Below, in pieces: positions 2,196 to 61,579 of a DNA stretch of 64,000 nt; within the stretch, counting starts at the first letter, position 1; the number at the start of each line of letters is the position of its first letter. Below the pieces are notes generated by a model. That model was not told where the DNA came from, made no database searches, and saw only the letters and a list, made by a program, of their open reading frames with translations. A program made the position numbers and the translations under genes. This DNA is from Liolophura sinensis. Its lineage: Eukaryota; Mollusca; Polyplacophora; Chitonida; Chitonidae. The stretch lies in the NCBI RefSeq assembly GCF_032854445.1, contig NC_088298.1:16885976-16949975 (forward strand). Reading direction: 5' to 3'.

Positions 2196-2344
2196 GTTTA
2201 CTTCAGTTAAGGTTTACTCTGTTTGCTCATGTAAATGTCTAAACAATAGCAAATTGTACGCCCCCTAGCACCGGACGTAAACAGGATAAGGGGAGGTTAA
2301 AGAAAAATACAAGTTGCAATCCATTAGACGTTACTGGTCTAGAA

Positions 2345-3740
2345 TTGCATGCACACAAAATGTTGTGTTGTGGTCACGTTACATGTACACAAAGTGTTGT
2401 GTTGTGGTCACATCACATGTACACAAAATGTTGTGTTGTGGTCACGTTACATGTACACAAAATGTTGTGTTGTGGTCAAGTTACAAGCACACAAAATGTT
2501 GTGTGTTGTGGTCACATTACATGTACACAAAATGTTGTGTTGTGGTCACATTACATGTACACAAAATGTTGTGTTCTGGTCAAGTTACAAGCACACAAAA
2601 TGTTGTGTGTTGTGGTCACATTACATGTACACAAAATGTTGTGATGTGGTCACGTTACAAGCACAAAATGTTGTGTTTACGTCGCATTACATGTACACAA
2701 AATGCTGTGTTGTGGTCAAGTTACAAGCACACAAAATGTTGTGTGTTGTGGTCACATTACATGTACACAAAATGTTGTGATGTGGTCACGTTACAAGCAC
2801 AAAATGTTGTGTTTACGTCGCATTACATGTACACAAAATGCTGTGTTGTGGTCAAGTTACAAGCACACAAAATGCTGTGTTGTAGTCACATTACATGTAC
2901 ACAAAATGCTGTGTTGTGGTCACATTACATATTCACAAAATGCTGTGTTGTGGTCACATTACATATTCACAAAATGTTGTGTTGTGGTCACGTTAAATGT
3001 ACACAAAATGTTGTGTTGTGGTCACATTGTATGTACACAAAATGTTGTGTTGTGGTCACATTACATGAACACAAAATGCTGTGTTGTGGTCACATTTCAT
3101 GTACACAAAATGCTGTGCTGTGGTCACATTACAAGCGCACAAAATGCTGTGCTGTGGTTACATTACATGTACACAAAGTGCTGTGTTGTGGTCTTATTAC
3201 AAGCACACAAAATTCTGTGTTGTGGCTACATTACATGAACACAAAATGCTGTGTTGTGGTTACATTACATGTACACAAAATGCTGTGTTGTGGTTACATT
3301 ACATGTACACAAAATGCTGTGCTGTGGTCACATTACAAGCACACAATATGCTGTGCTGTGGTCACATTACATGAACACAAAATGCTGTGTTGTGGTTACA
3401 TTACATGTACACAAAATGCTGTGTTGTGGTTACATTACATGTACACAAAAAGCTGTGTTGTGGTCAAGTTACAAGCACACAAAATGCTGTGTTGTGGTCC
3501 CATTACATGTACACAAAATGCCGTGTTGTGGTCACGTTACAAACACACAAACCGCTGTGTTGTGGTCGCATTACATGTACACAAAATGCTGTGTTGTGTT
3601 CACATCACATGTACACAAAATGCTGTGTTGTGTTCACGTTACGCGTACACAAAATGCTGTGTTGTGGTCCCATTACATGTACACAAAATGTTGTGTTGTG
3701 GACAAATTACATGTACACAAAATGCTGTGTTGTGGCCAGC
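2345..3740 (+). repeat. 34-bp minisatellite, about 41 copies
   Basis: A tandem array with a 34-bp unit, gttacatgtacacaaaatg followed by ytgtgttgtggtcac. A variant unit carries acaagcacac in place of acatgtacac. Units in the first half mostly have atgttgtg, those in the second half atgctgtg. A higher-order block of four units (136 bp) is repeated near 2650 and 2786. Because 34 is not a multiple of three and the unit lacks stops on the + strand, a 512-codon frame (2314-3852) stays open and reads all three registers in turn as a 34-residue peptide repeat. I regard that frame as a by-product of the repeat rather than a gene. Confidence 0.92.
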
Positions 3741-9052: not shown

Positions 9053-10787
9053 GTCATTACTCTGGTTTTAATCTCTACGCTATAGTCTTTTATATTAATT
9101 TAAGCATATGCCTGACATATTACAAAAAACTTGCTGGCTTTTTGACAGCAATTCGTCCTTCTTTGTTTAGGGCTGATTAACGGCAAAATACGTATCTGGT
9201 TGTAGGCCCACAGACTGTACGATGATAGCAAGGCAAGACAACTGCATACTAAAAGGCGATTGTCCAAAAATTCCTTTCGAAACAGCGCATATCACTTAGA
9301 AGTTTGGCTTAATCTACTCGAGAATGACAAAAAATCTCGGATGACTGATCACCACTGAAATTACGACCCACAACGTCGAATGTCATTTTACAATATGCAC
9401 AAAGACTTGTATGATTACAACATCTGCAAACAGAGAAGACAAACAGAGGCCTCTAAAAAGCATGACATTTATCCACTTCTAAATGATTAATATGTTCAAA
9501 GCTCCGCTTGCATCCACACCGCGTAGTGCAAGTTAGCGAACTCCTCTTCGGATTTATGTGCAAACTACTATGTAACCAATTCTTGTGATCTCAAAAGGAA
9601 AGAATGACTGTCAGGAATTGATTTAGTTCTTTTGGACACGAGCCAAGATTATACGGGAGTTCATAACGAGAGCTGACCACGAACGACCGCAGTCCCCAGG
9701 GATATGGTATAACCGTCTAATTCCGTCCAATACGACCTTGATTTGATCTTGATAATGCTCCAGTCTTGTGACCCTTTGCTGAAGGTTAACTTGGCGGCCA
9801 GAAGTCTTTAAAATATGGAATTAGTTTCTCAAGAAGGGCGCCAGTACCCATAAGCTATAGATCAATGTATCTAAGCAGTTCGCGAAGTGTATCGAGTGCT
9901 TAACAAAATATTAGGTTGAAATTTGTATTCTCCTTGGAAATCTCGCGTTGCTTATGATATCCACGTTAGATTGAATCTGTGCTCTACTATTTTATGGTTG
10001 GTCAAGCAGATTATATTTTTTTTTATAAAAGTCAAGCTCCACATGTTACATCAAGCATCAGTAAATCATGCATGTATGAATGGTGGAAAAAATATAGGCA
10101 TTTTGTTGCTTCAGTGGAGTTTACATAGATTGCTTACTGACCCTTACATTCGTTGAGTTACAAATTAACTTACGAGAATGCGTAGAATTATTGATTAATT
10201 TAGTAAAGGTTATGCCATTATGTCCCGTGAGATGTTCCTGTGAACATAATGTAGATTGTACATTCCACACATCATCTGTAAAGGTTTAAAGAAAGGTTTT
10301 CTGATAAGCTTTATTCTTAACAGCTTACTAAGAATTTAATTCTGCTAGAATACACACTACGCGTCAGTGCGATCCTGAGCAAATTATAGCACGTGAGCGG
10401 TCTTTGCCAACATCTACTTAACTGGGGCAAATGCTTAAATAACAGCAACCTGCTGGTCCCTAGCACCAGGGCTTCAGCAGAATTAGCTAACAAATTATTT
10501 CATTTTAATAGAAAGGTATGAGGCGTCACTGACACAGATATATGACATTTCTCAGTACAGTTTTTGCAGCGAATGAGGCTTGAATGAGGTTGATGTATCT
10601 TTAATATCCCCCATATACGGTGATATTACATATACATAGGCGTCAGGCTGTCGACTATTCTTCGAACTCAAGATATCATTGTTAAAACAGATACGAAGTA
10701 AGATTGAAAAATCAGAATCCCGAAGCTTTATCCAAATAATTAGCTAATTAAGAAGCAATTAGGAATTAATCCTTTTATGAATGAACC
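9053..10787. other. No recognisable feature
   Basis: Unique-looking AT-rich DNA. No convincing exon, SINE or tandem repeat was found here. Confidence 0.45.
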
Positions 10788-35988: not shown

Positions 35989-36267
35989 GTTAGGTATTGT
36001 GTCTCTCTCTCTTGATTGGTGTTTAACGCCGTACTCAAGAATATTTCACTTATACGACGGCGGCCATCATTATGGCGGGTGGAAACCGAGCACGGCCCGG
36101 GGGAAACCCACGACCATCTGCAGATTGCTGGCAGACCTTCCCACTTACGGCCGGAGAGGAAGCCAGCATGAGCTGGACTTGAACTCACAGCGACCGCATT
36201 GGCGAGAGGCTCCTGGGTCATTACGCGCTAACCAGCTGAGCCACAGGGGCCCCGTTAGGTATTGTGT
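35989..36267 (-). mobile_element. Full-length SINE-1 with 14-bp target-site duplication
   Basis: Direct repeats gttaggtattgtgt flank the element at 35989-36002 and 36254-36267 and are identical. Between them lies an antisense SINE-1 from the tail (here ctctctctcttgattggtg) to the tRNA head (ctgagccacaggggcccc). The tail carries a short (GA)n in sense rather than (AAAT)n. The perfect duplication implies a young insertion. Confidence 0.93.
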
Positions 36268-39949: not shown

Positions 39950-40188
39950 TTAAAAAAGCTGAAAGTCGCGGTTTTCATCGAGGGATTTGAACAGCAGAGG
40001 AAGAACGGATTCCCAGCGGTTTAACGTCAGGCTGAAGCAGCCCATCTTGACTGACTTTGTCATGAAGCCGGCGTGCACTGTGATTTTGAGACAGGCGCTA
40101 AATGAAGTAGTGGTGATCTGCACATCGTACATTTCCAAGCAGACACGCTTTCCTTTGAAAGTGAAGCAGGGTGGGTCGGGATTCTTGA
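39950..40188 (-). CDS. Secreted cysteine-rich protein (DUF4773-like), exon 4 (terminal)
   Basis: On the - strand a very strong acceptor (ttttcttttttctttttacag) opens a 78-codon frame entered in phase 1: KNPDPPCFTFKGKRVCLEMY, then DVQITTTSFSACLKITVHAG and MTKSVKMGCFSL, ending DFQLF-TAA. The exon is clearly more GC-rich than its flanks. The spacing NP.PPC...(8)...C..MYD...(9)...C...(16)...C resembles my recollection of the C-terminal half of DUF4773 proteins, small secreted invertebrate proteins of unknown function. The junction with exon 3 rebuilds an Ile codon. A possible AATAAA for the - strand lies at 38970-38975. Family assignment is from memory and unverified. Confidence 0.75.
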
Positions 40189-40559
40189 CTGTAAAAAGAA
40201 AAAAAGAAAATTGCACAAGTTTTGCAGTGTACTGTTATTCTGTCTGTTATTTAAGGAACGTCATGTCATCTTGTGTGTATGTGTATACATGAATGTGTTT
40301 TCTTCATTGTTTTCGGGTGTTTTTGTTTTCCGTTCTCCACTAATTCAAATATCCCCTTACTTACTTACTATCCAGTGGGGAAACTTCAGTGAGACACGAG
40401 CCCTAAGTTTGTCCTGTAAAACGTGCTTCATTAACTATTGTCCAGTATTTTCTCACTCTTTTAATTTTCTTAAATTAATGCCTTCGTAGCCTAATATAAT
40501 ATTTAATGTTCATTGAAGACAATTGGCTTCAGCTAACTTGTGAAAAGGAATTATTACCA

Positions 40560-40765
40560 TTACCATATAAGCCTAATCACTTTTCGCTTTATCATGTATT
40601 TACATTATATCATGTATTTACACTTTATCATGTATTTACACTTTATCATGTATTTACATTATATCATGTATTTATACTTTATCATGTATTTATACTTTAT
40701 CATGTATTTACACTTTTGAAATTTAATTTACTTGAAATATAACTAAAATCTGAATTAATTTATTT
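40560..40765. repeat. 17-bp minisatellite, left copy of a flanking pair
   Basis: About eight copies of a 17-bp unit tttatcatgtatttaca, preceded by aatcacttttcgc and followed by ttgaaatttaatttacttga and aatataactaaaat. The entire arrangement recurs at 41520-41660. Confidence 0.9.
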
Positions 40766-41519
40766 TGTTTTATGAACAACTGCCGTCAGCTTCTAAAATT
40801 AGCTTGCCACTGTTTACATATGCTGAGTTCAGGGCCTGCTGTCTGCCTCTGCCTTAGAATGGTCCAGAATACGCTCGGTTCGGGGCTTGTTTGTTTACAA
40901 CAAGTGTTCAAGAATTTTCTTACTCTAGAAAATTCTACCAGTCTATATAAGATCTATGAAAGCAGCTCAAAGGAGGAGAAAGGAGAATTATTGAGAGTTT
41001 TGGATGCTTTCGCTGTGTATTACTTTAGTAGGCCTTTTGTGCTGAATTTTGGTGTCTTTATAGCCTCTGGCTTTGTTATATCATATCTCCACCGAGCACT
41101 TGTTCAGTCTGAACTTGTATATTTAATTTGTGCTCTTGTGTACACAGTGCTTATTAGTACACGGACCCTGTCTGTGGAATTTTGTGTACATTTCGTCATA
41201 CTCTCAGTTATACTGTGGGTTTTCCCTCTTGTGAATATTGCCTCTGTGCATTTTTAAGCATTGTGGAGCATATGCGTCCGTTTGAACTTGACACCGTTGT
41301 ACATGTAAGTACTTTAGTATTTGTATAGATACTGCTATCCTTTCTTGTTAAACTTAAGTACTTTAGTATTTGTATAAGTCTTGTTATCTGTTCTTGTTAA
41401 ACCTAATAAATTGTTGAAAAACAAAATCTGCTGGTTTTGGTTACTTTTTGGTGCGGCTAAAGTGTCGTGTATTTCGAACAAGCCATATCTTTATAATACA
41501 GACAGTTTGGGTCATAACA

Positions 41520-41660
41520 ATTTACTAAATCACTTCTCGCTTTATCTTGTATACATTATATCATGTATTTACATTATATCATGTATTTACACTTTATCAT
41601 GTATTTACACTTTTGAAATTTAATTTACTTGAAATATAACTAAAATTTTAATTTATTTAT
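41520..41660. repeat. 17-bp minisatellite, right copy of a flanking pair
   Basis: Same order as 40560-40765 (aatcacttctcgc, three to four 17-bp units, ttgaaatttaatttacttga, aatataactaaaat). The two copies are direct repeats about 0.9 kb apart and enclose a 161-codon open frame (40772-41257) that I do not recognise. Confidence 0.9.
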
Positions 41661-41705
41661 TTACTAAAACGAAATCTTGCTATCCCATTGTGACCCCTTC
41701 GAAAC

Positions 41706-41873
41706 GTGGTCGTACGTGGGAATTTAAAGTCTGTCAACAGCATACAGAGGGTTGTGGATTTTTCTCGGGTACTGCCCTGCTTCCTCTCACAATAGTGCTG
41801 GCCATCGTCGTGTAAGCGAAATATTCTTGAGTACGGCGTAAAACATCAATGAAATAAAGAAATAAATAAATTG
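41706..41873 (+). mobile_element. Diverged SINE-1 3' half
   Basis: Sense copy from gtcgtacgtgggaa through tgctggccatcgtcgtgtaa to tattcttgagtacggcgtaa, aacatcaatgaaataaag and (AAAT)n. It lies in intron 3 of the DUF4773-like gene. Confidence 0.8.
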
Positions 41874-41967
41874 AACAATTAGAGCACGGTGGTTTCAGCA
41901 GACCCTCATAAGGTGCACATGATTAGAATATGGTCGGTTATGTACGCATTTACCAAAAACAACTCAC

Positions 41968-42063
41968 TTGGAACGTCGATCGTTTTCAGTGTGATGCTGT
42001 CCAAAGTGAAGGATATACTCAGTGTATTCGACGGAGCCATCAAGTACTTCACAACGATACAGC
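41968..42063 (-). CDS. Secreted cysteine-rich protein (DUF4773-like), exon 3
   Basis: A 96-bp exon on the - strand between acceptor ctatgtgtttgcag and donor CCAA|GTGAGT. Both boundaries are phase 1. It encodes CIVVKYLMAPSNTLSISFTL then DSITLKTIDVP. The single Cys followed by a K/TY and a strand-rich stretch resembles the centre of DUF4773 domains. It is too short (31 full codons) to appear as an ORF on its own. Joined to exon 4 it gives DVP-I-KNPDPPC, keeping the frame. Confidence 0.7.
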
Positions 42064-42289
42064 CTGCAAACACATAGCAACTCACCCTTTAAAAATTACA
42101 TATGATCATATTCATGAATAAACGTTTACATGAACCAACACGTCCAGTAGATATGATTTCGTACACTGCATTATAAGTCGAGACCAACGAAAATACCGAC
42201 TCGAGTGAGACAGTAGTATCGCCTTCCTCGATGTATTGGTGTAAGAAATCATATTTCTACGTTGTATTCTCTGCTGATGATTGTAATGT

Positions 42290-42730
42290 TATATAATAAC
42301 ACACACTGTAAACATAACAATGCATCCTGTAAACACAGAATAACACACCTCGTATACATAACGCATCCAACAAACACATAACAAATGTACAATAGCAATA
42401 CACCATGTAAACAAATTACAACACACTTTGTAAACACACGCGTGAAACAAATATATGGCATCGTAACCTGTAAATAAATACGTGTAACACCAGTGAAATA
42501 CATAATAATTAATGCAACCGTCAAACACATAACAACGCCCACTGTGACCACACAAGAATCTAATTTGTAAACACATAACAGGGCATCCGCTAAACAAATA
42601 TAACAGCACTCTCTGTAAACACATAACAGCGCAATCTCTTAAACACATATAACAACACACTGTGTAAACACATAAGAACTTATTCAGTAACCCTAAAACA
42701 ACACACTGTGTAAACACATAAGAACTTATT
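42290..42730. repeat. Diverged minisatellite (taaacacataac-rich)
   Basis: Irregular units of about 20-27 bp built from gtaaacacataacaacac. Near the right end a 46-bp segment (tgtgtaaacacataagaact plus tattcagtaaccctaaaac) is precisely duplicated (42661 and 42707). The long - strand open frames here (42249-42551, 42289-42717) are repeat artefacts. Confidence 0.8.
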
Positions 42731-43023
42731 CAGTAACCCTAAAACAACGAACTCTATGAACTCACAATACATTCCAACTGAAACTAAAATTTAATAACGC
42801 GTGATAATTAACTAAAAAGTGGACGGAGACAAAGCCGTTCGAAAAATGTAGTCAAAAAAGAGCTGTAAGCTGCAATGTTTCTCGCACCACGCCATGAAAC
42901 TGACAAGCACAACGCACAGCAAGCTCGTGACAGCTTTGGTGTTATTGAGTAGTGGTAGCGTTATGTTGACTGATTTATTTACATGTAACTGATTATTGCT
43001 AAACAATGGAACAATGGGTCCAA

Positions 43024-43330
43024 AAATACCGCTTTGGTGACCTAATGCAAGGTCACAGTGTCCACCTCGAAGTCAGGAGACCTCGGGTCAAATCCGGGTA
43101 GGGTAATACCAAAGATTTTTTTAAAAATAGTACTTCTTTTTGTATCGCTTGGTGCACAGTTCTTTATAGGTTAGAGCAAGGGAAATAACTGGTTAGCCCA
43201 GTGTCAGTAAATGATGTGACTGGGTGGGGTGAGCATGTCTGGTGTCTTCGGCATAATACTTCAGTGGCGCCAGCACTTTGGCGACATGGACTCGCCCTGC
43301 CACAAATACACAAAGTATATGTACAATCCT
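43024..43330 (+). mobile_element. SINE-3
   Basis: Sense copy: tRNA-Ser-like head (cacctcgaagtcaggagacc, tcgggtcaaatccggg), then ggtaataccaaagat, actggttagcccagtgtcag, gtgtcttcggcataatactt, ggcgacatggactcgccctg. The tail is truncated after ccacaaatacacaaagtat. It lies within intron 2 of the DUF4773-like gene. Confidence 0.8.
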
Positions 43331-44000
43331 ATGTCATACAGGATGTCTCAGGGATCTTTCTCGGTTTATACACTTACTTTAAATATTCTGTTAAACCAAA
43401 CTGGCTAGCTTTTAGAGTGTGATACTGAGCACTAAACGATCGAAGAAGTTCTACTCACACATTCATGTATATCTGAGCGTAAACAGCCAGATGCGATTTG
43501 TTTCTTTGTAAAGGTATTAGGTATGTAAACATCTATCCTCTGAAAACTTTCTTCCTGTGAGAGTAATTTATGCTTCCCCGTTGTATAGTTGTTCACATAT
43601 GATCCCCAAAATCGACAGCTTATGGTCAGCAAGACTTCATGCAGAAAACTACAAATCCCCTGCACAATGCTGGCATTGAAACCTCGACTATTATTACTTC
43701 GTACAGTTAGGTTATTCTGTTTCGTACGGCATACATACACTTTCGTGATGGCAGTGGTGACTATCACAAGTCGACAAAGCCCGCATAACCGTTTGCGTTG
43801 TCTAACTTTCATTGATGACGATTTGCTTTCCACATATACGGTGTGCATATCTTTACGTAGGAAATACATTAGTAACTTGCTAAAGGTCAGTGGTTTACGC
43901 CGCGCAATCCGGTTTTCCATATACACATATACACATAGAATTTGCCGCCAAAAGGGGACATTTTTGCAGGTAATGAGCAATAACAAATAAGTAAATGAGC

Positions 44001-44086
<86 letters not shown>

Positions 44087-44090
44087 AATC
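44001..44090. repeat. (AACT)n followed by (AAAT)n
   Basis: About eleven AACT tetranucleotides pass directly into about ten AAAT tetranucleotides. Confidence 0.95.
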
Positions 44091-44225
44091 AATAATAGAA
44101 TGTAAATCTAATGAAGTTTTTGGAAACAGATACATCTCTATTATGTCGATCTAACTCTGTATCCATAGTCTTCCTCCATATCACAATGGCATCTGATTAG
44201 TCGTGTCGTGTCGTACAAATAAGAC

Positions 44226-44464
44226 GGGGCCTCCATGGCTCAGTTGGTTAGCACGCTAGCGTAGCGTGATTACCCAGCAGTGGGTGTGAGTTCAAGTCCA
44301 GCTCATGCTGGCTTCCATTCCGCTGGTACGTGGGAAGGTCCATCAGCAACCTCGTGGGTTTCCCGAGTGCTCTGCCCGGTTTCCACCCACCATAATGCTG
44401 GTCGTATAAGTGAAATATTCTTGAGTACGGCGTAAAACACCAATCAAAAAAATAAATAAATAAA
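44226..44464 (+). mobile_element. Full-length SINE-1
   Basis: Sense copy starting at the tRNA-like head: ggggcctccatggctcagtt, ggttagcacgctagc (box A region), gtgagttcaagtcc (box B). It runs through cgtgggtttcccgagtgctc and ttccacccaccataatgctg to ttgagtacggcgtaaaacac and (AAAT)n. It is intact enough to serve as a reference copy for this window. Confidence 0.93.
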
Positions 44465-44669
44465 ACGCCAGTACAATATATAAATAAATACGAATGGGAC
44501 TAAAGATTACCAGCACGTGATGGCCAAATAATTCGACGGGGGTGAGAATAAAGTGGGTGGGGAGGATTGATTCCATCGGTATTTAACGACACTCTGAGAT
44601 GTCATTTAGTGCGTCGTTAAACACAGATTAAGTCTGTCATACCACATGAAATCAATTATATTAGAGTCG

Positions 44670-44818
44670 GTGGGTCAAAGTTGTTGGAGCGTCATTAGCA
44701 CGCCAATGACCCAGGAGCCTCTCACCAATACTGTGAGTTCATGTCCAGCTCATGCTAGCTTCCTCACCCACTGTACTTGGGAAGGTCTGCCAACAACCCG
44801 CGGATGACCGTTGGACAC
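44670..44818 (+). mobile_element. SINE-1 5' half
   Basis: cattagcacgccaatgaccc, aggagcctctcaccaatact, gtgagttcatgtccagctca, gggaaggtctgccaacaacc. The tail is missing. It ends about 20 bp from exon 2 of the DUF4773-like gene, so it sits in the start of intron 2 as the gene is read. Confidence 0.75.
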
Positions 44819-44840
44819 TGGTGTATTCGGAGTAAAATAC

Positions 44841-44915
44841 CTCCTTTGGCAAGAGTGTGACAATTCACCACCAGAAAGGCGTTGCACAGATTTCCACATG
44901 CACATGTGGTCTGCA
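44841..44915 (-). CDS. Secreted cysteine-rich protein (DUF4773-like), exon 2
   Basis: A 75-bp exon proposed on the - strand between an AG acceptor (gacaagtctag, with a weak pyrimidine tract) and donor GGAG|GTATTT. Both ends are phase 1. It encodes QTTCACGNLCNAFLVVNCHT then LAKG: four cysteines in the pattern C-x-C-x3-C-x7-C that my recollection of the family predicts upstream of the exon 3 strand region. Splicing to exon 3 gives KG-G-CIVV. The splice signals are the weakest of the four exons. Exons 1 and 3 could also be joined directly in frame, so this exon might be alternative or wrong. Confidence 0.5.
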
Positions 44916-45865
44916 CTAGACTTGTCATATTCATTTAGTGGAGTATATCCCCAAGATCTTCATGCAAGACCAATCATAACCCTCTTGATGTACGAGCACC
45001 GTTGACCAATTATTAAAACCAGGGCCCCGAGAACTGTGCAGAGAAATCTCCAAAACTGTCTGCTGGGTAGAACCTGGATCTACCGTCTCCCCATAAAGAA
45101 GTAAGTCTAAACGATAAAATTAGTGGGAAAGGCCAGTAAGCAGGACTCATGTATGATTCAGTTTCCGGCATTTCATAATTTATTTCAGTTAGTTTTTGTT
45201 TGTGATACATATAAGTGGGCCTAATGACTGCAATTATACAATGGTCTCAAAAAACATTTATTTTTAATTTGATGCTTATAGCGATTTTCCATCTATACCA
45301 CGGTTGTCAGTTTTATGGGTGGAGGAAATCAGAGTGCAGCGAATAAACCACCGACCTTTGACAAATTTATGGCGAATTTTCCCACGTTTGAAACTAATGG
45401 AAGACTAAACGTCGCCAGCGTGTTTAATGTAAGACCTCACAAAGAGAGCACAATCAAACACTTTATGTCTTTAAGGCCCCAAAAATATTGGAGACAGGAG
45501 AATCTTGCAAACTCACTGTCCGAGTATATTACTGGATCCATGTTTCGTGTGACCTAGATATCCTTTAAAGGTCAAGCACCTTTACCACTCGGCCAGAATC
45601 CTCTGAAAACCTCATCAATCAAAGATGCACGTTGTTACTTCAGAGGGCATATTGTCTGTTAGTGGAAATGGACGGGCAAAACGGGATTTTTGGACTCTAA
45701 AGCCCTCTGCGCAAATGAATTCATGTTTTCCTTTTTTTTCTTCTTCTTTTATTACCACTATGTTAAAAGGTTATTTGAAAATCCGTCAGAGGACAAAAAA
45801 TAAACCACTACATTCCGTGACCTACATTAATGGTTCAGGTTAAAATATTATATAAATATAATATT

Positions 45866-45957
45866 GAAAACAGATCTTTAGTGAAAATAGAGCTTTAGTG
45901 AAAACAGAGCTTTAGTGAAAACAGAGCTTTGGAGAAAACAGAGCTTTGGAGAAAACA
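45866..45957. repeat. 17-bp tandem repeat, 5 copies
   Basis: Five units of gaaaacagagctttagt; the later units carry ggag in place of tagt. Confidence 0.9.
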
Positions 45958-46545
45958 TACTTATAGGCTCTATATATATAATATAATTGAATGTTCATTT
46001 CAGAACAGAGTTATAAAATTTTTAAGGATTTTGTTTTCACAAGGAACAACACTTTACACTTCTGTCCCATCTCTTCACAGTACAACAAATGCAAAGACAT
46101 ACCACAAATTAACGGATTGTTTCACAGCTAAACGATATGCAAAGGTACGGTTCGTGGAGGTTTATTGGTTGGAACCGTTTCAGGAGAGGACTTTGCAGTG
46201 AAAAGAACACATTTCCTGATTATGTGATTTTTTATGTAATCTGTGTGCACATCTAGGTCATCATTCCTAAATAACATCTTTCAAAACAAGGTTATTAATA
46301 TATAATGAGAAAAAAAAAATGTTACAACATGCACATAGGCCTATGTACGGACGTGTAGGTGACGTTTTAAAGTCACACACTGTTGGCGTATATAACACAC
46401 AGTTTAATCTATATGAGTAATTATTCAACGCCAGAGATTTGACAACGCGTGTTGATCTACATGTAACATGACATAGATCACTAATCGTTTGTAAAGAAAA
46501 CATAGTTGAAACTTAAAAAAAAAGAGAAAAATAGAAGATTTTTAT

Positions 46546-46664
46546 GGCTTCTTTCTCACAGGCTGGGCCAGGTATGCACCAAAGCTTATTGGCCACGGAA
46601 TGTTTGGGACTGAGCTACAGCGCTACATGTCAACATTGTCGCTTATGGAAAACTAATGGGGGTT
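46546..46664 (-). repeat. Dispersed repeat of unknown type, copy 2
   Basis: Inverted copy of 37774-37905 with roughly ten differences over ~120 bp. On the + strand it reads ctcacaggctgggccaggta to ggaaaactaatgggggtttg. It is followed by a SINE-2-like head (gtggcctgtggtcagcgcca). Confidence 0.8.
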
Positions 46665-47130
46665 TGTGGCCTGTGGTCAGCGCCAAGGGAGGTAATGAAG
46701 TGGCTACGACAACAAAGCACTTAAAGACCGGGAGAATTCCACGGATCAGGGAAGTTGGATCGGTGCTCAGTTAAGGTACTAGGTTTACACACCGATCTGG
46801 TATACAAGTCACGCGTGGTATAATAAATCCTGTCAATCAACGATTAAGGGTCAGCTTCATATCTAGTAACATCAAACAAGGAAGTTAGCTTTGCCGTTAC
46901 TGGTAGAGTATAGGAGGACAGTCATGCAGGGGGAAATGACCGAATCGAAACCGGGGTTTCGATCAATTACTTGCTCCATTATGAAGTGCCTTTGTGGTAA
47001 TAATACTAATAATTATTATGAGTGGTAACATTTTCCTGAACACGGGTTTAAAGAATCAATTAAATAACCGAAATTACATTACAAATAATAACGATGATAA
47101 TACTTTTTTTGTATAGTTAATTTTTTTTGT

Positions 47131-47450
47131 ATGCTCGAGGTTTTACGTAGTACTTAACAATTTTTCAGTCACATGACTACGAGTCATTAGCTGTGTGTAC
47201 ATATTTTGTATGGCACGAGTCCAGGCCGCCAAAGTGCTGCCGTCACATAAGTATCATGAAGACACCAGACATGACACCCTACCCATTCACATTATACTGA
47301 CACCGTGTCAACCAGTCTTGTTTCCTTGCTCTATCCTCTGGTGTCAGCGATGCAACAACAAGTGATACTTTTAAAGTCTTTGATATGACACGACCTGGAT
47401 TTGATAACAGTTATCCTGTATACGAGGAGAAAGCTCTAACCATTAGATCA
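47131..47450 (-). mobile_element. SINE-3, near full length
   Basis: Antisense: tail ttttacgtagtacttaacaa, tttttcagtcacatgac, body gccaaagtgctgccgtcaca, agacaccagacatgacaccc, aacaagtgatacttttaaag, and an eroded tRNA-like head (aagctctaaccattagatca). It lies in intron 1 of the DUF4773-like gene. Confidence 0.8.
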
Positions 47451-48387
47451 CCGTCGTTTTGGGTTTTTTTTTTGTTTTTTTTTTGGCAATCGTACCTGAG
47501 TGTCCGTACATGGTCACACAACATGACGCGGAAGTCAAAGCTGGAACCATACACGACCCATCCCCAATCTCGTCTATACCTGCAAATTAAAGAGAAAACG
47601 CTTTGATAACTGTACCTATTCCATTATATGTACGTGTGCCCGCCCTGTTACCAAATGTGCCACGAAACTGTAGATTGAATAAAACATTCAATTAAGAACA
47701 AATGAAATTTAAGGTTAAAACATCTCTGGACAAACTGTAAAAAAGGATCATTGCTATACGTGTATTTTAAAGGTGGAGAAAATGTAAAAATTACATGAAT
47801 TTCAGAATTGCGAAAAGTTAGCTGTAAATGTGGTCTACAGTATTTTTTTCAATTTTTCTTTGAGGAGAAAATACACTTGAAAATAATTTTTGTACGGTGG
47901 CTGGGACTAATATAATATATATCACATTAGCCCCAGCATATGGGTATTTTGGATCACTTTTTAATGGTATATATCGTGTTAATAATGGTAATAATGTAAT
48001 AATGTCATAAATGATAATGTAACACGTCTCATAAATGTATTTGGTCTTTTCGGCTAATAAATGTGTTCAACCTGGATTTTGACAATATTTATATTTTAAA
48101 TATATTCATAAATATTATCACAATTCAGATTAAATATATATGTTTGGATATACACAACAACAAATTAACATTCAAATGTATTTTTTATCAGACATGCATC
48201 GCATACATATTTAGAACATTATATGTGCAACGACAATAAACACTAAAAGATGCTCCCAAATACCCACCGTACAAAAATATTTCCAGATACCCTTTTTCCC
48301 AGAATTTTGTAAATAATTTGATGCTCTTTCATTTGATTTGGCATCATTTTTATTTTTTTCTCCTCTGATATATGTTTAGTTTTAATT

Positions 48388-48600
48388 TGTTTATTTATTT
48401 ATTTATTTATTTATTTATTTTATTTATTTAGTTGTTGTACGCCAAACTCAAGAATATTTCACTTATATGACTACCAGCATTATATGGTAGTATCGCAGTG
48501 CTCAAAATTATAATTTCAATTCGCTCATTATTTATTTTTTCTTTCTTTATTTATTTATTTATTTATTTTTGACGTCGTGCTCACGGATATTTCACTTATC
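48388..48600 (-). mobile_element. Two eroded SINE-1 3' ends
   Basis: At 48388-48491 (TTTA)n leads into gttgtacgccaaactcaaga, atatttcacttatatgac, ccagcattatatggtag. At 48541-48600 a second (TTTA)n leads into gacgtcgtgctcacggatat, ttcactta. Both are antisense and diverged. Confidence 0.6.
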
Positions 48601-49422
48601 GTTCCCTTATGTTAGCATACATGAGGAAATCACATGCAGTGCTTTCCCGTCGCTCTTCGCGAGGCTTTTGTGAGACTTATTTGTTTGAGGCCGCAGCTGA
48701 ATGACCCAGAGTTGCAGTCCAGGCTGCGAGCTTATAGGTCAGGGGACAGTCTCGGCTGAGGCGAGAATAACGTTGTTGAATGAAGTAAAGCGCGTACCTT
48801 CGGCTCCTATAATAACTGTTTAAAGTTACATATTCATGTGTAAGTCTATATAGTCTTCAACATATGAAAATCTTTTAAAGGAGGGGAACATAGAAGTGAT
48901 GCGTATGACAGGTCGTATGAGAAAGTATTCGCAAATATCGTCAGCATAGTTAAGTTTAAAATCCAGCACAGTTAAGAACGGAGTAGTCTATTTTGTAATA
49001 AAGTTCATTTATCAACATAATACTCAATTCGCATTGAAGAGCCAGACAGGAGGGCCCGTCTATTTTTCTTTCATTTTATTTTATTTATTTCATTTTGTTC
49101 CTTTAAGCCATTCTGAAGACTTCTTCACTGATATATATACAGGTCGAGGCAATCTTCGTAGATGAAGGAACAGATGTACCCAGAGTAAACCCGTGAACAA
49201 GCGAAGAAGGAAAATTTAGAAAATTTTGTGCCCGGGAATGGGATTGAATTCACGACAAATGTGATCTGTGCATGGCGCATGCTTTATACGAATGGTAACA
49301 CTCTGATAAGTATTTCATTTGCAATTAACTATGCTGAATTAAACAAAACTAAACAAAAAAAAAAACAGACAAAAAAACAACAAATAAAGTGCGCCTGAAG
49401 TCAAAGTATACCACAAAATTAC

Positions 49423-49531
49423 CTTTCAGGTTTGCCTCAAACAGGTTCGCGAGCTGTGCATAACGCAGGTCTTGTGTGGAGACTACCGAAGCGAAGAGTA
49501 CTAAAGCCAGGAGCCCTGTGATCCACGCCAT
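49423..49531 (-). CDS. Secreted cysteine-rich protein (DUF4773-like), exon 1 with signal peptide
   Basis: First exon of a proposed 172-residue protein. The ATG at 49531 starts MAWITGLLALVLFASVVSTQ, a textbook signal peptide (short polar start, hydrophobic core, small residues before a likely cut near STQ), followed by DLRYAQLANLFEANLK. It ends in phase 1 at AAAG|GTAATT. An upstream in-frame TTG adds nothing plausible, so the ATG is chosen. Exon 2 completes a Val codon. The mature product would carry nine cysteines and be secreted. Its role is unknown; DUF4773 proteins have no established function that I know of. The introns (about 4.5, 2.8 and 1.8 kb) are filled with SINEs and minisatellites. 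Confidence 0.75.
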
Positions 49532-49570
49532 ACTAGTCAATTCTACAACTTATACTACTATCAGAGCAAA

Positions 49571-49580
49571 TACTTTTATG
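49571..49580 (-). promoter_or_regulatory. Candidate TATA element for the secreted-protein gene
   Basis: On the - strand CATAAAAGTA lies 40-50 bp upstream of the ATG at 49531, which leaves room for a start site about 30 bp downstream and a very short 5' UTR. A second candidate, CTATAAATATA (about 49640-49650), lies further upstream. Neither has been tested. Confidence 0.35.
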
Positions 49581-49928
49581 CAGTAAACTGCCCTTGTATC
49601 CACAACCTGTTGCAGTGACGTTCTAGGCATTTATGCGCAGTATATTTATAGCCTAGTACATATAAGCTTTATACTTACACTGCAAAAAAAAATTCCGGTT
49701 ACACTATTAAGTTACATGAAAATTGGTTTCAGGTGAATATAAAATCGACCACATTCCTAACCATATTTCTTTTTCGTTATTTTTCAGGCCCTCGGGTGAT
49801 TAAAGGTTACGACATTTATAACCTGGTTTCACAGGTTCATGCTGTCCGTACATATACCTTATCATGTGCAGGGTAGTAAAACTAGAACCCACGGCTCAAA
49901 CAATTACTTCACGTAAAGCATGATGATC

Positions 49929-50019
49929 AGGGTCCCGTTTCACAAAGAGCACGTAGCGCTGCGCTCACGTAACTGCCATGGCGACGTAACGTTACGTTCG
50001 CTTTGTGAAACAAGGCCCT
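49929..50019. mobile_element. 91-bp MITE-like element with terminal inverted repeats
   Basis: The left end AGGGTCCCGTTTCACAAAG pairs with the right end CTTTGTGAAACAAGGCCCT at 17 of 19 positions. The interior is itself nearly palindromic (cacgtagcgc, tgccatggcga, acgtaacgttacgt). The size and structure fit a non-autonomous DNA transposon; similar TTTCACAAAG-ended elements are, as I recall, common in marine invertebrates. The target-site duplication is unclear. Confidence 0.75.
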
Positions 50020-50055
50020 GCTCCTTAAAACAGAAAAAAATATATAGACTTTTAA

Positions 50056-50262
50056 TTTGTACGACTATACGAGTATATAAATTGGTAGGCCGTGGCTTTG
50101 TTCGACTATACGACTAAATATATTGATAGGCCGTGGCTTTGTACAAATATACGACTATATATATTGGTAGGCCGTGGCTTGTACGACTGTACGACTCTAT
50201 GTATTGGTAAGGCGTGGCTTTGTACAACTATACGGACTGTATATATATTGCAGACCGTGGCT
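50056..50262. repeat. ~48-bp minisatellite, about 4.5 copies
   Basis: The unit contains attggtaggccgtggctttg, then tacgactatacgactatata. It directly follows the MITE-like element after a ~37-bp spacer. The open frames in this array are artefacts of the repeat. Confidence 0.88.
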
Positions 50263-50911
50263 AGAACGGATATAAACGAAAGTATTTTTTCAGTGTACAT
50301 GAATTATTTCCGAATACAATACATGTGACCATTTACCCATTGTTTTACTCCCTGGATCCGGTTGTTAATGCAGCCAAATTGTGGATATAAACTATGATAT
50401 AATTACACATGTCTTACAATATCAAGAGTTGAAAAACAATGCAGCGATAATTAGACCCATGCAGGGTTTCCAGTGTTACAAAAATGGTACTTTACGCGGA
50501 AGTATGGACTTCTGGTATACGATACACGGTCACTCGGTCACATTTAACATAGATCAGTGTATAAACGCAATAGATACACACGATGGCCGTGATTCTAGTG
50601 TATTTCTCGTAACATAAAAATCGGCGCTCTATTTAAGCTGAAATATTATATTAACTTGTAACAGTTTATGGCAAAGGTGGGAAAGTGCATAATTTTAGAT
50701 TTTACCACTTAGTGAAGTGTTAGAGAAGTAAAACTTTAGGCTAGGCATACCCGTCTTCGGAGAGATCACCCCCATCTTCTAATCACACGTAAATAAATAA
50801 ATAAACAAATAAATAAATAAAGCAGCATATCAAGATGATAGGTACTTATAATTTCGTAGGCCTAGTACTGAATCTAAATATTATTGCAGATTGTTAACTG
50901 TTATGTCATGA

Positions 50912-51113
50912 GACCAACTGTCATGTTATATACCCAACTGTCATGTTATATACCCAACTGTTATGTTATATACCCAACTGTTATGTTATATACCCAAACG
51001 ATTATGTTATATAATATATATGTTATATGACCAACTGTTATGTACATACCCAACTGTCATGTTATATACCCAACTGTTTTATTATATGACCAACCGTTAT
51101 GTTATATATTTAT
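50912..51113. repeat. 20-bp minisatellite, left arm
   Basis: Copies of caactgttatgttatatacc, with tgacc and tcatg variants. The array is continued at 51373 after a SINE-1 insertion. Confidence 0.93.
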
Positions 51114-51372
51114 TCATTTTATTTATTGATTTGATTGGTGTTTACGCTGTACTCAAGACTATTTCACTTCCTCGACGGCGGCCAGCATTATGATGGATGG
51201 AAACCTGGCAGAGCCCGGGGGAAACCCACACCCATCCGCAGGTTGCTGGCCGACCTTCCCACGGCCGGAGAGGAAGCCAGCATGAGCTGGACTCACAGCG
51301 ACCGCGTTGGTGAGAGACTGCTGGGTAATCACACTACGCTATCGTGCTAACCAACTGAGCCACGAAGGCCCC
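51114..51372 (-). mobile_element. SINE-1 inserted in a minisatellite
   Basis: Antisense, near full length: (TTTA)-rich tail, gattggtgtttacgctgtac, gcggccagcattatgatgga, cgcaggttgctggccgacct, cgctatcgtgctaacc, ctgagccacgaaggcccc. It is bounded on both sides by ttatgttatata, which may be the target-site duplication but is also part of the host repeat unit. Confidence 0.9.
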
Positions 51373-51683
51373 TTATGTTATATACCCAATTGTTATGTTA
51401 TATGACCAACTGTTATATTATATACCCAACTGTTATGTTATACACCCAAATGCCATGTTATATGACCAGCTGTTATGTATATACCCAATTGTTATGTTAT
51501 ATACCCAGTTGTTATGTTATGTACCCAACTGTCATGTTGTATGACAAACTGTTATGTTATATACCCAACTGTTATGTTATATACCCAACCGTCATGTTGT
51601 ATGACAAACTGTTATGTTATATTCCCAACTGTTATGTTATATATCCAACTGTTATATTTCCAACTGTTATGTTATACACTCAG
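51373..51683. repeat. 20-bp minisatellite, right arm
   Basis: About 15 copies of the same 20-bp unit as 50912-51113. Higher-order pairing is visible: a three-unit block with gtcatgttgtatgacaaact occurs twice (near 51531 and 51591). Confidence 0.93.
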
Positions 51684-52387
51684 TTAAAATCAATGTACTA
51701 GAGTTTTGTTTAGTTTTTAAAGAACATTCGCTATTTTCTCCAGGTTGACTGCACAACCCTGAAATGCACGTTACGACGGAAATAAAATAGGAGCTTGCAT
51801 ATGTCCTTTACTGTGTGCCCTGCGTAACGTCAGTCAGCTTTGAGCTCAAGCTATATTTTGATTTTGTTATATAGTATTATATGAGTTTTTGCTGGGAATT
51901 ATGTCGTTTTGTTGATGTCGTCAATTTTACTATAGAAATGAGAAGGAGCGATGGGATGCAGGTTGGGTGAAGTAGGGTGAGGTAATCCAGTCTACCTGCA
52001 TGTTTAGCAGCCTTGGAGCTCTTCTGTGAAAAGAGGAGCGATTAGTAGTCAACCTTACGATTTTGTAATACTGCGAGATGTTTTCAAAAGAAAATAGGGT
52101 TACATGTAAACAAAAACTATGCCGGGAATCGCCTAAGTTTCACAGAAAACAGCGTAAAATGAATCACCTTTAAAATGTCAGACTCGAGGTTTTTGACATC
52201 GGAAGGGAGAATTGTTCCAGTACTGAGCCGAGATGACATACCAAAGTATTGTGCCTTACACAAGTGTGTTCATAGGTCGGTCTTGTTTTCATTTCCTATT
52301 TTCATTTTCACATTTTAGATTGTTCAGTATTTATACTTCTTTGAACAGCTGTTTATTATTACTTTTTGTCTGGAGGCAAAAGGGTAG

Positions 52388-52448
52388 CTCAGCTAGCTGA
52401 ACACTCCAAACGACCTACGTAATCGTAGGTAGTCTCCAGCTAGCTGAG
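52388..52448. other. Two-stem inverted repeat (hairpin)
   Basis: A perfect outer 12-bp pair, CTCAGCTAGCTG (52388-52399) and CAGCTAGCTGAG (52437-52448), encloses a perfect inner 6-bp stem CCTACG-TAAT-CGTAGG (52414-52429). The left arm resembles a tRNA box A (tagctcagctagctgaac). It could be a small foldback element or a transcribed hairpin; there is no evidence for either. Confidence 0.7.
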
Positions 52449-52799
52449 ATAGGCAAAGACAATTGTTACGTCAGGGCAGGGTTTATGATTTGTCATGTTT
52501 GTTTGTCCTTGATCCGCTTCTCAGAAGTTTATTATGGAAACGAGATTCTTGAATGAATTGACCTCACTCTATCACGGCAACAAACCAGTTCTTACTACAG
52601 CCAGGAAAAAAAAAGAAACAAGATATTTTTGAGGTTGTAATTATTGAGTAGTTAGCGAATTTGTACCGTCCTCCCTCCAGATGAAGCATACAGTTAGAGA
52701 ATTTTTCGTGTGTATGTGTATATACATGTACTAGGTGTTCACAACCAATAAAAACAGTCATTAATGTAGGAAGTCACTGGCAAATGTTTAATTCAATTT

Positions 52800-52945
52800 C
52801 TTGATTTATTTGATTGGTGTTTTACACCATACTCAAGAATATTTCTCTTGTATGAGAGTGGCCAGCATTATGGTGGGATTGAGGAAACCGGTCATAGCCC
52901 GGAGGAAACACATGAAAATCTGCAGGTTCATGGCAGACCCTCTTT
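52800..52945 (-). mobile_element. 5'-truncated SINE-1
   Basis: Antisense: tttatttgattggtgtttta, caccatactcaagaatattt, ggccagcattatggtgggat, tagcccggaggaaacacatg, ctgcaggttcatggcagacc. The head is absent. Confidence 0.85.
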
Positions 52946-53018
52946 GATTCAAGGGTAGGGCCTAATGACTGGATGAAAAACCCTGCGAAGTGAAGATAAA
53001 ATTGAATGAGAGGCTTCA

Positions 53019-53174
53019 AAGGCAGTTATAAATGCTGATCGCAGGAAAGCTATCTCCTAAATTAAGTCAAACTCAGTGGATTCTTTGCTGTCAATACATG
53101 CTTCTTTCCAAATCCGTTGAGTTTGGTTTGATTTACGAGATAGATCCCCTGCAATCAGCATTGATATCTGCCTT
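53019..53174. mobile_element. Foldback element with ~62-bp imperfect arms
   Basis: The left arm (53019-53082: ggcagttataaatgctgatc, gcaggaaagctatctcctaa, attaagtcaaactcagtgga) is the imperfect reverse complement of the right arm (53111-53174: aatccgttgagtttggtttg, atttacgagatagatcccct, gcaatcagcattgatatctg). Around 80% of positions pair, with a ~28-bp loop. It could be a MITE or a hairpin RNA source; no second copy is seen in this window. Confidence 0.75.
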
Positions 53175-54853
53175 GGTATCTTCTCCTTGAACTGGTTTTT
53201 CTATAATCCACGTTTTGTATCTGATCATTAGGGCATACCTGATTCAAGACCATCACAAGGCATGAAATGTGCAACTACAACAACCAAGTGTCAAAAATGT
53301 ATTGATTGCAATAAGACCTGTTCCTAATGAAGGATATTTTGCATGCGATTTCTTCAAACAAGGCCAAATATAGCATTATAAGGTTGTGTCCTGGAAATGT
53401 CACCTTATTAGTGGGATTTTTCCTAACTGTTAGCATTCAAATACATTGTACAACTACTGCTGACTGTAGCGAAAGAAGACGTATCCCTTTTATTTGAAGA
53501 AATCGTGCAAAATAACCCTCTTTGGGATTATGTCACATTACGTCATTTCGCATTGTAACTCTTGTGTCTGCTTGACATGAGTCAGAGTTACCTTACTTGT
53601 TTGGAGCTTTGTCAGACAACAGCCGAAAGACATCATAGACAGGTCATGTAGGCCTGTCTGTATTGAACGCACAAGTGAAGCTATTATTAACACACTGTAT
53701 CCTGCCCTTTCCCTTATCCCATGCCATATTTCAAACAGGTTCAGATAGAATTTATAAGAGGATTAACCCTAGCAAAATACTAACTCAGCTGTTTTTGTTT
53801 CAGTTAAAAAAGAGTTCTCAATAATTTATTAAACTAGGTTATTGAACTGCTAAGCAAAAGGGTTCTCTGGCTATCTACAAAGTTAGCAAACCTTTTTACT
53901 CATAAAGCAGCAGTGCCTACCTATATATGTACTTGAATAACAATATAATTTATAACTTTTCATGACAAGTTGTTATGTTAACTATCAAAACCATTGATAC
54001 CCTAACATCTTCAACGTTTCATCATAAGAAATCATCATACAAATTCCTCATACGAAAGAGCAACTTTCAGTGCAGTTTATGCACATTTATTTTGATTTTG
54101 GAAACAAAGCTACCTTGGTTTGGGTTGGCTAATTTCAGGGCTTCAAAAAAGGAATCATAATTATATCAGTCTGTAGAGAATAATGCCTTCAGAAAATACT
54201 TGAATGAGCACCTTGCAAACATGGTTGAAGGTTGAAGTCATGTCCATGTAGGAAGAGGGCACTGCTGTTTTTCATTTATGAGTCATAACAGTTGTTTCCT
54301 TTTGTAGAGGGCTGGCGAACTCTATTTATGTTAAGAAGAAGTTTGCTGGAAATTGTTTTATGACTCATGCGCAAGCCATGAGTTAATGTAGTTAAAAATA
54401 TCCTTTACAGGCTCCAAGATTACATGAATTTACGATTAGTTAATTATTTAATGTGTGTTTTACTTGTCGTGCTTGTGGCCAATACAAACCTGTTTCCGAT
54501 CACTTTATGCCTTCTTCACTTGCCCCCGGGCATTGCCCAAATCACCTGGCGTGCATAATTCATAATATACATGTATACTGTGAAACTTGCAAGAGATGTG
54601 CAATCTGTTAATATACATACATTGTGCAGAGAGGAACATTATAGTTACTGCAAGTGACACATTTTGATTGATTCATTCCATCCTGTAAGGGCCACTTAAG
54701 AGTTTATTGTGAAAGCTGAGTAAGTTTAATGATTAGAAAATTTACGTGTAAGCACACAAAAGTATCGCTTTCAGGTCTTTATGTGCATTTCTGTAAGTCA
54801 GTATTGCTGCTGAACCATATTTTTATAATTATTTTCGTGCTTTCACTTCACAG

Positions 54854-55815
54854 ACGCAGACTGGAAAGATTTCGCCCATGCAGCAAGAGAATGTGTGGTG
54901 CAGTCAGGTGACAGGAAGTCTTTGATAAAGGAGATAGAGAAAATGTGGACCAATGACCAAAACCCAAACTTTGTCCTCCCTTGTCTGTCAGTACGAAGTG
55001 GCCTTGACCTTTACTTGAAGGTCAAGCAGTTTCCTGCTGGGTCAGAGGTCATTATGTCAGCCATAAACATTCCCGACATGGTTCAGATCGTACGACACCA
55101 TGGACTGCGCATTTTGTCCCTGGATATTGACCTGGAAACAACGTCGCCTAAAATTGAGCTCTTGGAAAGTTTAATATCAAAGAAAACAGTTGCCATTCTT
55201 TTGGCGCACATTTATGGGAAACTGTTTGACATGGAGCCTTTTGTGTGTGTCGCTAAGAGACATGGTCTCTGCATTATTGAAGATTGTGCTGAAGGCTTTG
55301 CGGGTTTGCAGTACTTGGGACACCCGAAGAGCGACATATCACTATTCAGTTTTGGCGTTATAAAATTTTACACAGCGTTTGGAGGAGCCATATTGAAAAT
55401 TCGCAGCGAAGATATATTCTCAAAAATGCACCAGCAGCAAAACCGACAAAGTGTGCAATCAAACAGAGCTTTTCTACAAAAGGTCATAAAGTATTCCTTC
55501 ATTTATGTTCTCTTAAACTGTCCACGTTTTATTAAACCAGGAATGTATCTGACTAGGGCAGTGGGCTTGGATCACCAGCAATTAGTTGTGAAAATGTTGC
55601 GAGGATTTCCAGAAGATCTAATCAGCCGAATTCAGTACCGTCCGTCTACTCCTCTTTTACACATGATGTGCAAACGTGTGCAAGGGTTTTCTGAAGCAGA
55701 TTTTAACCTGAGCAGAATGAAAGGAGAATACGTGAGTCAGAGACTGCCAGAAAACATCACCATCGTCGGGGTCAAAGCAGAGGTGAACAACTATTGGCTG
55801 TACCCCATTATTGTG
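54854..55815 (+). CDS. DegT/DnrJ/EryC1/StrS aminotransferase-like protein, internal exon
   Basis: A large exon between acceptor ctttcacttcacag and donor ATTGTG|GTGAGT. The frame is entered with two bases of a split codon and reads ADWKDFAHAARECVVQSGDR at its start. It shows the fold-type I PLP enzyme landmarks of the DegT family: a strand-loop CLSVRSGLDLYL, EVIMSAINIPDMVQIVRHHG, IYGKLFDMEPFVCVAKRHGL, IIEDCAEGFAG (PLP-ring Asp, codon at 55282) and FSFGVIKFYTAFGGAI with the Schiff-base Lys (AAA at 55363). Family members transfer an amino group to keto-sugars or act as sugar dehydratases. The substrate here is unknown, and the segment after the lysine is diverged from bacterial enzymes. The N-terminus is missing; earlier exons must lie upstream. 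Confidence 0.9.
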
Positions 55816-56490
55816 GTGAGTGCAATGTGCACATATGTTTACTTGTTGTTAGGGTTTTATTTTGTGAAACACCCTCAAAGTCAGTTGGTGATGGTGTTGA
55901 AGTATTCATGGTGCCGCCTCAATGAATTACCATTACAAGACATCCGTAATGAAGTGTGTGTCTGAGATATATGTAACTTGAGTGATTCTGCTTTTCAAAA
56001 ATGGGTTGGGCTAGTTTGGAAATTAGTTTTTTATTTGTTTTTAGTGACTGCCATGTTCATAACCTTGAAGATTAATGCTGAAAAAATTTTAGGAAGAAGA
56101 CAAATAGAGGAATAAATCAGTATGGCTTTCATAACTTCTAAAAATTTAGCAAGAAATTGAAGAAAAAAAAAGACAAAACTACCATTCTTCTTGAGGCCAG
56201 TAAAAACTTTTGAGCAGGTATGGATTTGTTGGGTTGTTTCTGGTTGGAATACACAAGATGCTCATATTTTTAAGGATGGCCGTGTATGTTCACAGTGATG
56301 AGTACACATGCACTGACTTGGCATTCCACTGGGGCATCATCATGATATGACCTACATGATATTGAAAGCAATGTTCATATCATTCCCATCAATTCTAGCC
56401 CATGTCTCACAACTTAGCATAGGTCAGTGGTTTACTCCAGGCATTCTGGTTTTCTTCTCCCATAAACCAGCCCCCATCATATAATTGAAA

Positions 56491-56848: not shown

Positions 56849-57061
56849 GACATGTACATATAATTGAAAAAAAGGACATTTTTGAGTATAGTGTAATAGG
56901 CAAGAAGCAGGTAAATGTATCAATCATTGTATTAATGTGTTGTTAATTCAATAGAAATATAAAAAATAATGATAGTATTTCAATCAATAAACCAGTCGCT
57001 TATTCTTCCAACAGGCTTTTCCATCATACACTACATGTATGTCTGTTCTTGTATCTGGCAG

Positions 57062-57412
57062 AATAACCCTGACAGCTTTGTGCGGACCCTTAACTCGCTT
57101 GGAGTGGACGCTTACCGAGGCGCAACGCAGCTCAACATCATCGAGCCTGACAACGGCAATGATGACTTGTACATGAAATACCTGACCTCGCCCAATGTCA
57201 TGCACCACTATCCTCACGAGGCAAAGTACCTCATTGACCATGTCGTTTACCTGCCCATTAACAAAACCGTGCCTTTCTGCGAACTTGATCGTATTTGTGC
57301 AGCTGTCCAGAAAGCTATGATGCTAGAGGGGAAAGATGGGACAAAAATCAGTGTGAAGTTACAAGGGAAAGATGGGGCAAAGATCAACCTGAAGCTACAG
57401 TCGAAGCTTTGA
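57062..57412 (+). CDS. DegT/DnrJ/EryC1/StrS aminotransferase-like protein, last exon
   Basis: Begins after acceptor cttgtatctggcag in phase 0, matching the donor at 55815, and reads NNPDSFVRTLNSLGVDAYRG, then ATQLNIIEPDNGNDDLYMKY and YLIDHVVYLPINKTVPFCEL. It ends with RICAAVQKAMML, the usual C-terminal helix of the fold. After this helix come two tandem 12-residue units (GKDGTKISVKLQ and GKDGAKINLKLQ) and SKL-TGA. The final SKL would be a classical type 1 peroxisomal targeting signal if accessible, but it lies in repeat-derived sequence, so this is only a hint. The window contains 436 codons of this protein in two exons. Confidence 0.9.
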   Translation, partial: NNPDSFVRTLNSLGVDAYRGATQLNIIEPDNGNDDLYMKYLTSPNVMHHYPHEAKYLIDHVVYLPINKTVPFCELDRICAAVQKAMMLEGKDGTKISVKLQGKDGAKINLKLQSKL

Positions 57413-61344: not shown

Positions 61345-61579
61345 CTGATTTATTTATTTATTTGATTGGTGTTTTTACGCCGTACTCAAGAATATTTCAC
61401 TTATACGAGGGCAGCCAGCATTATGGTGGGTGGAAACCGGGCACAGCCCGGGGGAAACCCACGACCATCCGCAGGTTGCTGCCAGACCTTCCCACTTACG
61501 GCCGGAGAGGAAGCCAGCATGAGCTGGACTTGAACTCACAGCGACCGCATTGGTGAGAGGCTCCTGGGTCATTACGCTG
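61345..61579 (-). mobile_element. SINE-1 with 12-bp target-site duplication, 5'-truncated
   Basis: Antisense copy from the (TTTA)n tail through agccagcattatggtgggtg and cgcattggtgagaggctcct to gggtcattacgctg, where it stops before the box A region. It is flanked by perfect cgtttttaatga repeats (61333-61344 and 61580-61591). Loss of the pol III promoter start by truncation together with an exact duplication supports target-primed reverse transcription. Confidence 0.93.

Follow-up and report, generated by a model that had tools for sequence, protein, structure and literature searches.

We report that a 64,000-nucleotide stretch of the genome of the chiton Liolophura sinensis (C4:16885976-16949975 in a 609-Mb genome; "the window" below) very probably carries, on its minus strand, an animal protein-coding gene whose product is small, probably secreted and contains a single DUF4773 domain. 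At least two exons of this gene, 3 and 4, encode that domain, and they are joined at a phase-1 intron common to two paralogs in the same genome. The gene is real, of diverged sequence and known family, and in itself ordinary.

An earlier note on this DNA had proposed a single gene of four exons, all on the minus strand, at 49531-49423, 44915-44841, 42063-41968 and 40188-39950 (exons 1 to 4). We cut out, joined and translated these exons, and the coordinates, strand, borders, intron phases and joined frame of 172 residues were as the note had given them. The exons measure 109, 75, 96 and 239 nucleotides, the last including the stop codon and, with the borders read from the sequence, all three introns are of the GT..AG type and in phase 1. 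Exon 1 opens with ATG and ends in AAAG/gtaatt; exon 2 lies between tctag/TGCAG and GGAG/gtattt, exon 3 between ttgcag/GCTG and CCAA/gtgagt, and exon 4 runs from ttacag/TCAAG to TTTTAA. The intron before exon 4 contains an 18-bp tandem repeat (40587-40716).

The DUF4773 domain of exons 3 and 4

The earlier note had assigned the gene to DUF4773 and proposed a search of the joined product against the hidden Markov model of that family. That search, against Pfam PF15998 (profile length 118, curated gathering cut-off 27 bits), returned a single match at 37.3 bits (E 4.2e-9) between residues 40-148 and profile positions 8-115 of 118, which places the product over the cut-off across most of the profile and bears the assignment out. 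Exon 4 alone scored 23.7 bits in the Pfam scan, below the cut-off, and adding exon 3 raised this to 35.4 bits, above it; the domain assignment is therefore independent of exons 1 and 2. Exons 2 and 3 without exon 4 gave no DUF4773 match listed at E up to 10, exons 1, 2 and 4 gave 20.4 bits, and exons 1, 3 and 4 gave 38.3 bits. No enzyme family reached a meaningful score in the Pfam scan of the joined product, the second row, AIRS_C, lying below its own cut-off. We conclude that the gene almost certainly belongs to the DUF4773 family, an assignment that can stand on two exons while the 5' gene model remains uncertain. The C.C....C.CC block that both paralogs have at the N-terminal end of the domain was not recovered in the window product.

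Both exons are well supported. Exon 3 (42063-41968) carries one cysteine in beta-strand-like sequence, with the central cysteine followed by a YLP-like strand and then a second strand, as expected of DUF4773, and its 96 nucleotides equal the length of exon 3 in the paralog on the same contig. Exon 4 (40188-39950) carries four cysteines (NPDPPC, VC, SAC and GCF) and the stop codon. A pattern derived from three genes of this genome, NPxP.C ... C ... SxC ... GCF, describes the C-terminal half; both the window gene and the C4 paralog retain it, and the member on contig C11 has HPPKIC, SGC and GCF at the corresponding positions. An internal duplication of the domain was considered and rejected, as 907 to 1954 of 3000 shuffles scored as well as the comparison of the first half with the second in five such comparisons.

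Paralogs in the chiton genome

A six-frame DUF4773 search of the genome (E up to 10) was made exon by exon with the best candidates scored, so members may be missed; its eight rows contained three DUF4773 loci, a lower bound, one of them strongly diverged. The top row, and the sole one above the cut-off, was the last exon of the C4 paralog (44.1 bits, C4:13551782; the match runs partly into the intron). Exon 4 of the window gene was second-best of the eight listed rows at 24.4 bits (E 0.016), below the cut-off on its own, and the last exon of the C11 member and exon 2 of the C4 paralog (C4:13546020) scored 23.6 and 18.4 bits. Three rows at C1:3549-3551 kb and one at C2:1271 kb were frames of tandem repeats and were not counted as members. 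The repeat at C1:3548-3553 kb holds open frames of 277, 602 and 1764 residues, rich in cysteine and histidine, which give weak false DUF4773 matches. Among viral contigs, 30 pattern matches were found and none was confirmed as a relative.

The C4 paralog lies 3.4 Mb from the window gene on the same contig, at C4:13543382-13552057 on the plus strand. Assembled from genome stretches, it encodes 187 residues in four exons (13543382-13543508, signal-like; 13545979-13546092; 13548663-13548758; 13551831-13552057) with all introns in phase 1. It matched DUF4773 at 97.1 bits over residues 57-171, and this score therefore bears on its exons 2 to 4. As modelled, the two genes are alike in their four exons, uniform intron phase, signal-like first exon and exon 3 of 96 nucleotides, and differ in exon lengths (127, 114, 96 and 227 nucleotides in the paralog vs 109, 75, 96 and 239). 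Their products were 34.5% identical over 110 residues in a two-sequence BLASTP comparison (E 2.5e-17), and the window product is much the weaker DUF4773 match, at 37.3 vs 97.1 bits. Compared exon by exon, exon 3 scored 55 against its paralog counterpart (shuffle maximum 47) and exon 4 scored 98 (shuffle maximum 45), values reached by 0 of 2000 shuffles in either case.

The third DUF4773 gene, at C11:374.5-377.8 kb, has a distinct intron layout. Its last exon starts at 377467, a single open frame holds its Cys-rich block and the strand after it, and a likely middle exon, unscored, was picked by eye at 376282-376339 among 15 listed candidates. The two pieces, scored separately and not joined, gave 21.3 and 25.3 bits against DUF4773, each below the cut-off. 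Unlike the window gene, the C11 member is not interrupted by an intron where the Cys-rich block passes into the following strand, its donor lies further on, and a long open frame stands ahead of the domain. The window gene and both paralogs share, however, the position of the phase-1 intron that precedes their last exon, and phase-1 splicing at this point is therefore usual for DUF4773 in this genome. There is good support for exons 3 and 4 belonging to one gene, and this part of the four-exon proposal stands; of the rest, exon 1 is only plausible and exon 2 is uncertain.

Predicted fold and proposed role

Exon 4, folded alone from an alignment of the three last exons, was predicted to form four beta strands and a helix (mean predicted local distance difference test score 74.7, predicted template modelling score 0.52, block means 78-90 over residues 1-50). 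It is half a domain, and the prediction therefore says only that the unit is beta-rich. A two-sequence profile compared with solved structures gave five rows (best E 0.17). The sole structure row for the joined product, a designed repeat protein at E 0.0046, was taken as chance, no stretch of it passing alone.

Other DUF4773 members appear in three reports. A DUF4773 protein is listed among the markers of oyster haemocyte cluster 1 (the number comes from a flattened table), which the authors assign to macrophage-like cells, or ML/BGC in their discussion (PMC12064177); another is present in octopus skin mucus and listed as down-regulated in a time course (PMC11431876); and in secreting locust pleuropodia a DUF4773 transcript ranks with the most abundant of those upregulated, at 9112 vs 15 reads per kilobase per million in legs (PMC6966819). 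In the open literature searched, no use of the accession PF15998 was found and the name DUF4773 was rare; with the family name spelled out, none of the matches listed was, by its listing, evidently on DUF4773. From the haemocyte, mucus and pleuropodia reports, we infer that the product most likely binds a partner in the extracellular space, as a disulphide-bonded protein of haemocytes or epithelia. In such a scheme, the gene would have a signal-peptide first exon and an N-terminal Cys-rich exon, and its product, made by blood cells or secretory epithelia, would be exported, fold as a disulphide-bonded beta-strand domain and act extracellularly by binding rather than as an enzyme. Its action there would most likely be in defence or mucus, a role that we put forward tentatively.

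The 5' exons and the rival gene models

Exon 1 (49531-49423) is, judged from its sequence, a plausible first exon with a signal peptide; it holds an ATG, the putative signal peptide, a short linker and the phase-1 donor AAG/GTAATT. By a crude hydrophobicity and cleavage score, used in place of a signal-peptide program, it ranked top (3.04) among 29 phase-1 ATG-to-donor candidates on its strand between 44916 and 54800, and one of the 44 candidates in the same span of the opposite strand stood above it (3.47). At 49650-49614 on the minus strand, TATAAATA (at 49650) and an initiator-like TCACT (its A at 49616) lie 85-119 nucleotides ahead of the ATG, which is weak evidence of a promoter. By itself, a TATA box at such a distance is frequent (603 of 2629 window ATGs); the TATA/initiator pair is rare (8 of 2629 on both strands, exon 1's included), the pair having been selected after being seen.

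Exon 2 (44915-44841) runs from phase 1 to phase 1 with four cysteines, and about even odds must be given to its belonging to the gene. In the paralogs the pattern C.C....C.CC is followed by 14 residues and a further cysteine, whereas exon 2 has C.C...C only; if its third cysteine is aligned to the leading cysteine of the CC pair, the distance to the cysteine of exon 3 is the same (15 residues). In its favour, placing exon 2 on exons 3 and 4 of the paralog raised the score from 64.4 to 72.1 bits (+7.7), and, joined to exons 3 and 4, it had the highest Pfam score among the 11 exons tried. Paralog exon 2 in its place gave 63.7 bits (+28.3 over exons 3 and 4). Also in favour of exon 2, the motif C.C.{2,6}C was found, on its strand, in exon 2 only (two nested forms) among 110 candidates and in 0 of 127 on the other strand. 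Other comparisons put exon 2 within chance. Its score of 22 against paralog exon 2 was reached by 878 of 2000 shuffles, and at least one exon with its loose cysteine pattern turned up in 43 of 400 Markov sequences modelled on the stretch. In 308 kb of strand, the pattern was present in 25 of the 4040 candidate exons: exon 2 itself, four versions of the genuine paralog exon, and a remainder of which several were nested or of low complexity. Its donor ranked fifth of 235 (stretch 42064-49422) when the final 15 residues were compared with the paralogs, and of 6250 donors elsewhere, a set that includes a Cys-rich tandem repeat supplying many of the top rows shown, 120 scored as well. We also considered exon 2 as a repeat and rejected this, as a 180-base stretch (exon 2 plus 95 bases upstream) matched only itself in the genome in a search that passes over highly frequent words. 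A common interspersed repeat starts 27 nucleotides downstream of exon 2; its copies, at 44695-44814, 1608-1723, 36107-36231, 61458-61573 and other places, are about 70-82% alike over 100-126 nucleotides in the longer matches, and it occurs in 8 of 10 sequences searched.

The reading of a secreted DUF4773 protein built from all four exons has several points to answer. Exon 2 is without the C.CC of both paralogs, one cysteine of the pair and one earlier cysteine being missing and one being new; the window model has nine cysteines in all vs ten in the domain of the C4 paralog; exon 2 barely shifts the Pfam score, from 38.3 to 37.3 bits (-1.0) with exon 1 and from 35.4 to 38.2 bits (+2.8) without it; and its acceptor is poor, with 5 of 13 pyrimidines. 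The first exon of the C4 paralog was itself picked by the crude signal score, second of 64 in its span (2.85 vs 2.86), and the control strand there holds higher signal-like scores within a repeat (3.39). Finally, sequence searches with the joined product and with the two-sequence profile found no solved relative, and the role draws on other DUF4773 members, through passages of three reports that concern expression or abundance rather than functional tests. The exact four-exon model has about an even chance of being correct.

The same gene could instead have another N-terminal part. The exon at 47579-47496 (minus strand, phase 1 on both sides) was alone among 311 candidates, a good many nested, in passing both splice-signal thresholds used, and its three cysteines include a CC pair like that of both paralogs. 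Because all introns are in phase 1, every combination of this exon, exon 2 and exons 1, 3 and 4 keeps the frame, and the use of both exons would give 12 cysteines, an even number. Joined to exons 3 and 4 it gave 37.3 bits, vs 35.4 without it and 38.2 with exon 2; it was one of ten other candidates so tried, picked by eye from 38 others listed with at least two cysteines and each trimmed to its last 30 residues, and the remaining nine gave 31.3 to 35.3 bits. However, 8 residues separate its CC from the next cysteine vs 14 in both paralogs, and, added to a model that includes exon 1, it reduces the score (36.4 bits, or 36.8 with both exons, vs 38.3 with neither). It could take the place of exon 2, be used alongside it or have arisen by chance; a gene that uses it, in either manner, is possible if somewhat doubtful. 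It is unlikely that exons 1 and 2 are both chance, with only exons 3 and 4 right and the true 5' exons elsewhere, perhaps too diverged to be recognised. The shuffles, simulations and donor ranking of exon 2 and the higher signal-like exon on the control strand would fit such a case, but exon 1 agrees with expectation in phase and order and has a paralog counterpart and TATA/initiator-like signals, and no CxCx(2-6)CxCC motif was found on the minus strand from 42064 to 54800. A decayed copy of the C4 paralog, to which the low identity and the partly lost cysteine pattern of exon 2 could point, is very improbable, given that the frame is open, the borders are GT..AG, all four cysteines of exon 4 are kept and the length of exon 3 is kept. 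We also consider it rather doubtful that the gene encodes a remodelled DUF4773 protein whose N-terminal cysteine block was rebuilt, with nine cysteines, or twelve with 47579-47496, and partners or a binding site unlike those of the ten-Cys paralog; if this were true, the odd nine cysteines would mean a free thiol or a disulphide-linked dimer.

Further features of the window lie around this gene. An ATTAAA at 39839-39834 on the minus strand, 111 nucleotides past the stop, is a possible polyadenylation signal, a short motif and weak as evidence. A long open frame at 54829-55965 on the plus strand encodes a DegT/DnrJ/EryC1/StrS sugar aminotransferase domain (88.9 bits), with perosamine synthetases as its best-scoring solved chains, and the open frame at 56963-57412 (plus strand), a piece of which had no Pfam match, may hold the C-terminal part. 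These aminotransferases are a largely bacterial enzyme type, found here in an animal genome. A 34-bp unit is repeated about 41 times at 2344-3735 and is open in several frames at once (up to 520 residues); this array looks like a minisatellite rather than a gene.

DUF4773 proteins occur in secreting and immune cells of invertebrates, and the family is functionally uncharacterised. A genome with few members, in which at least three loci were found and one is strongly diverged, is a workable place to study DUF4773 function.

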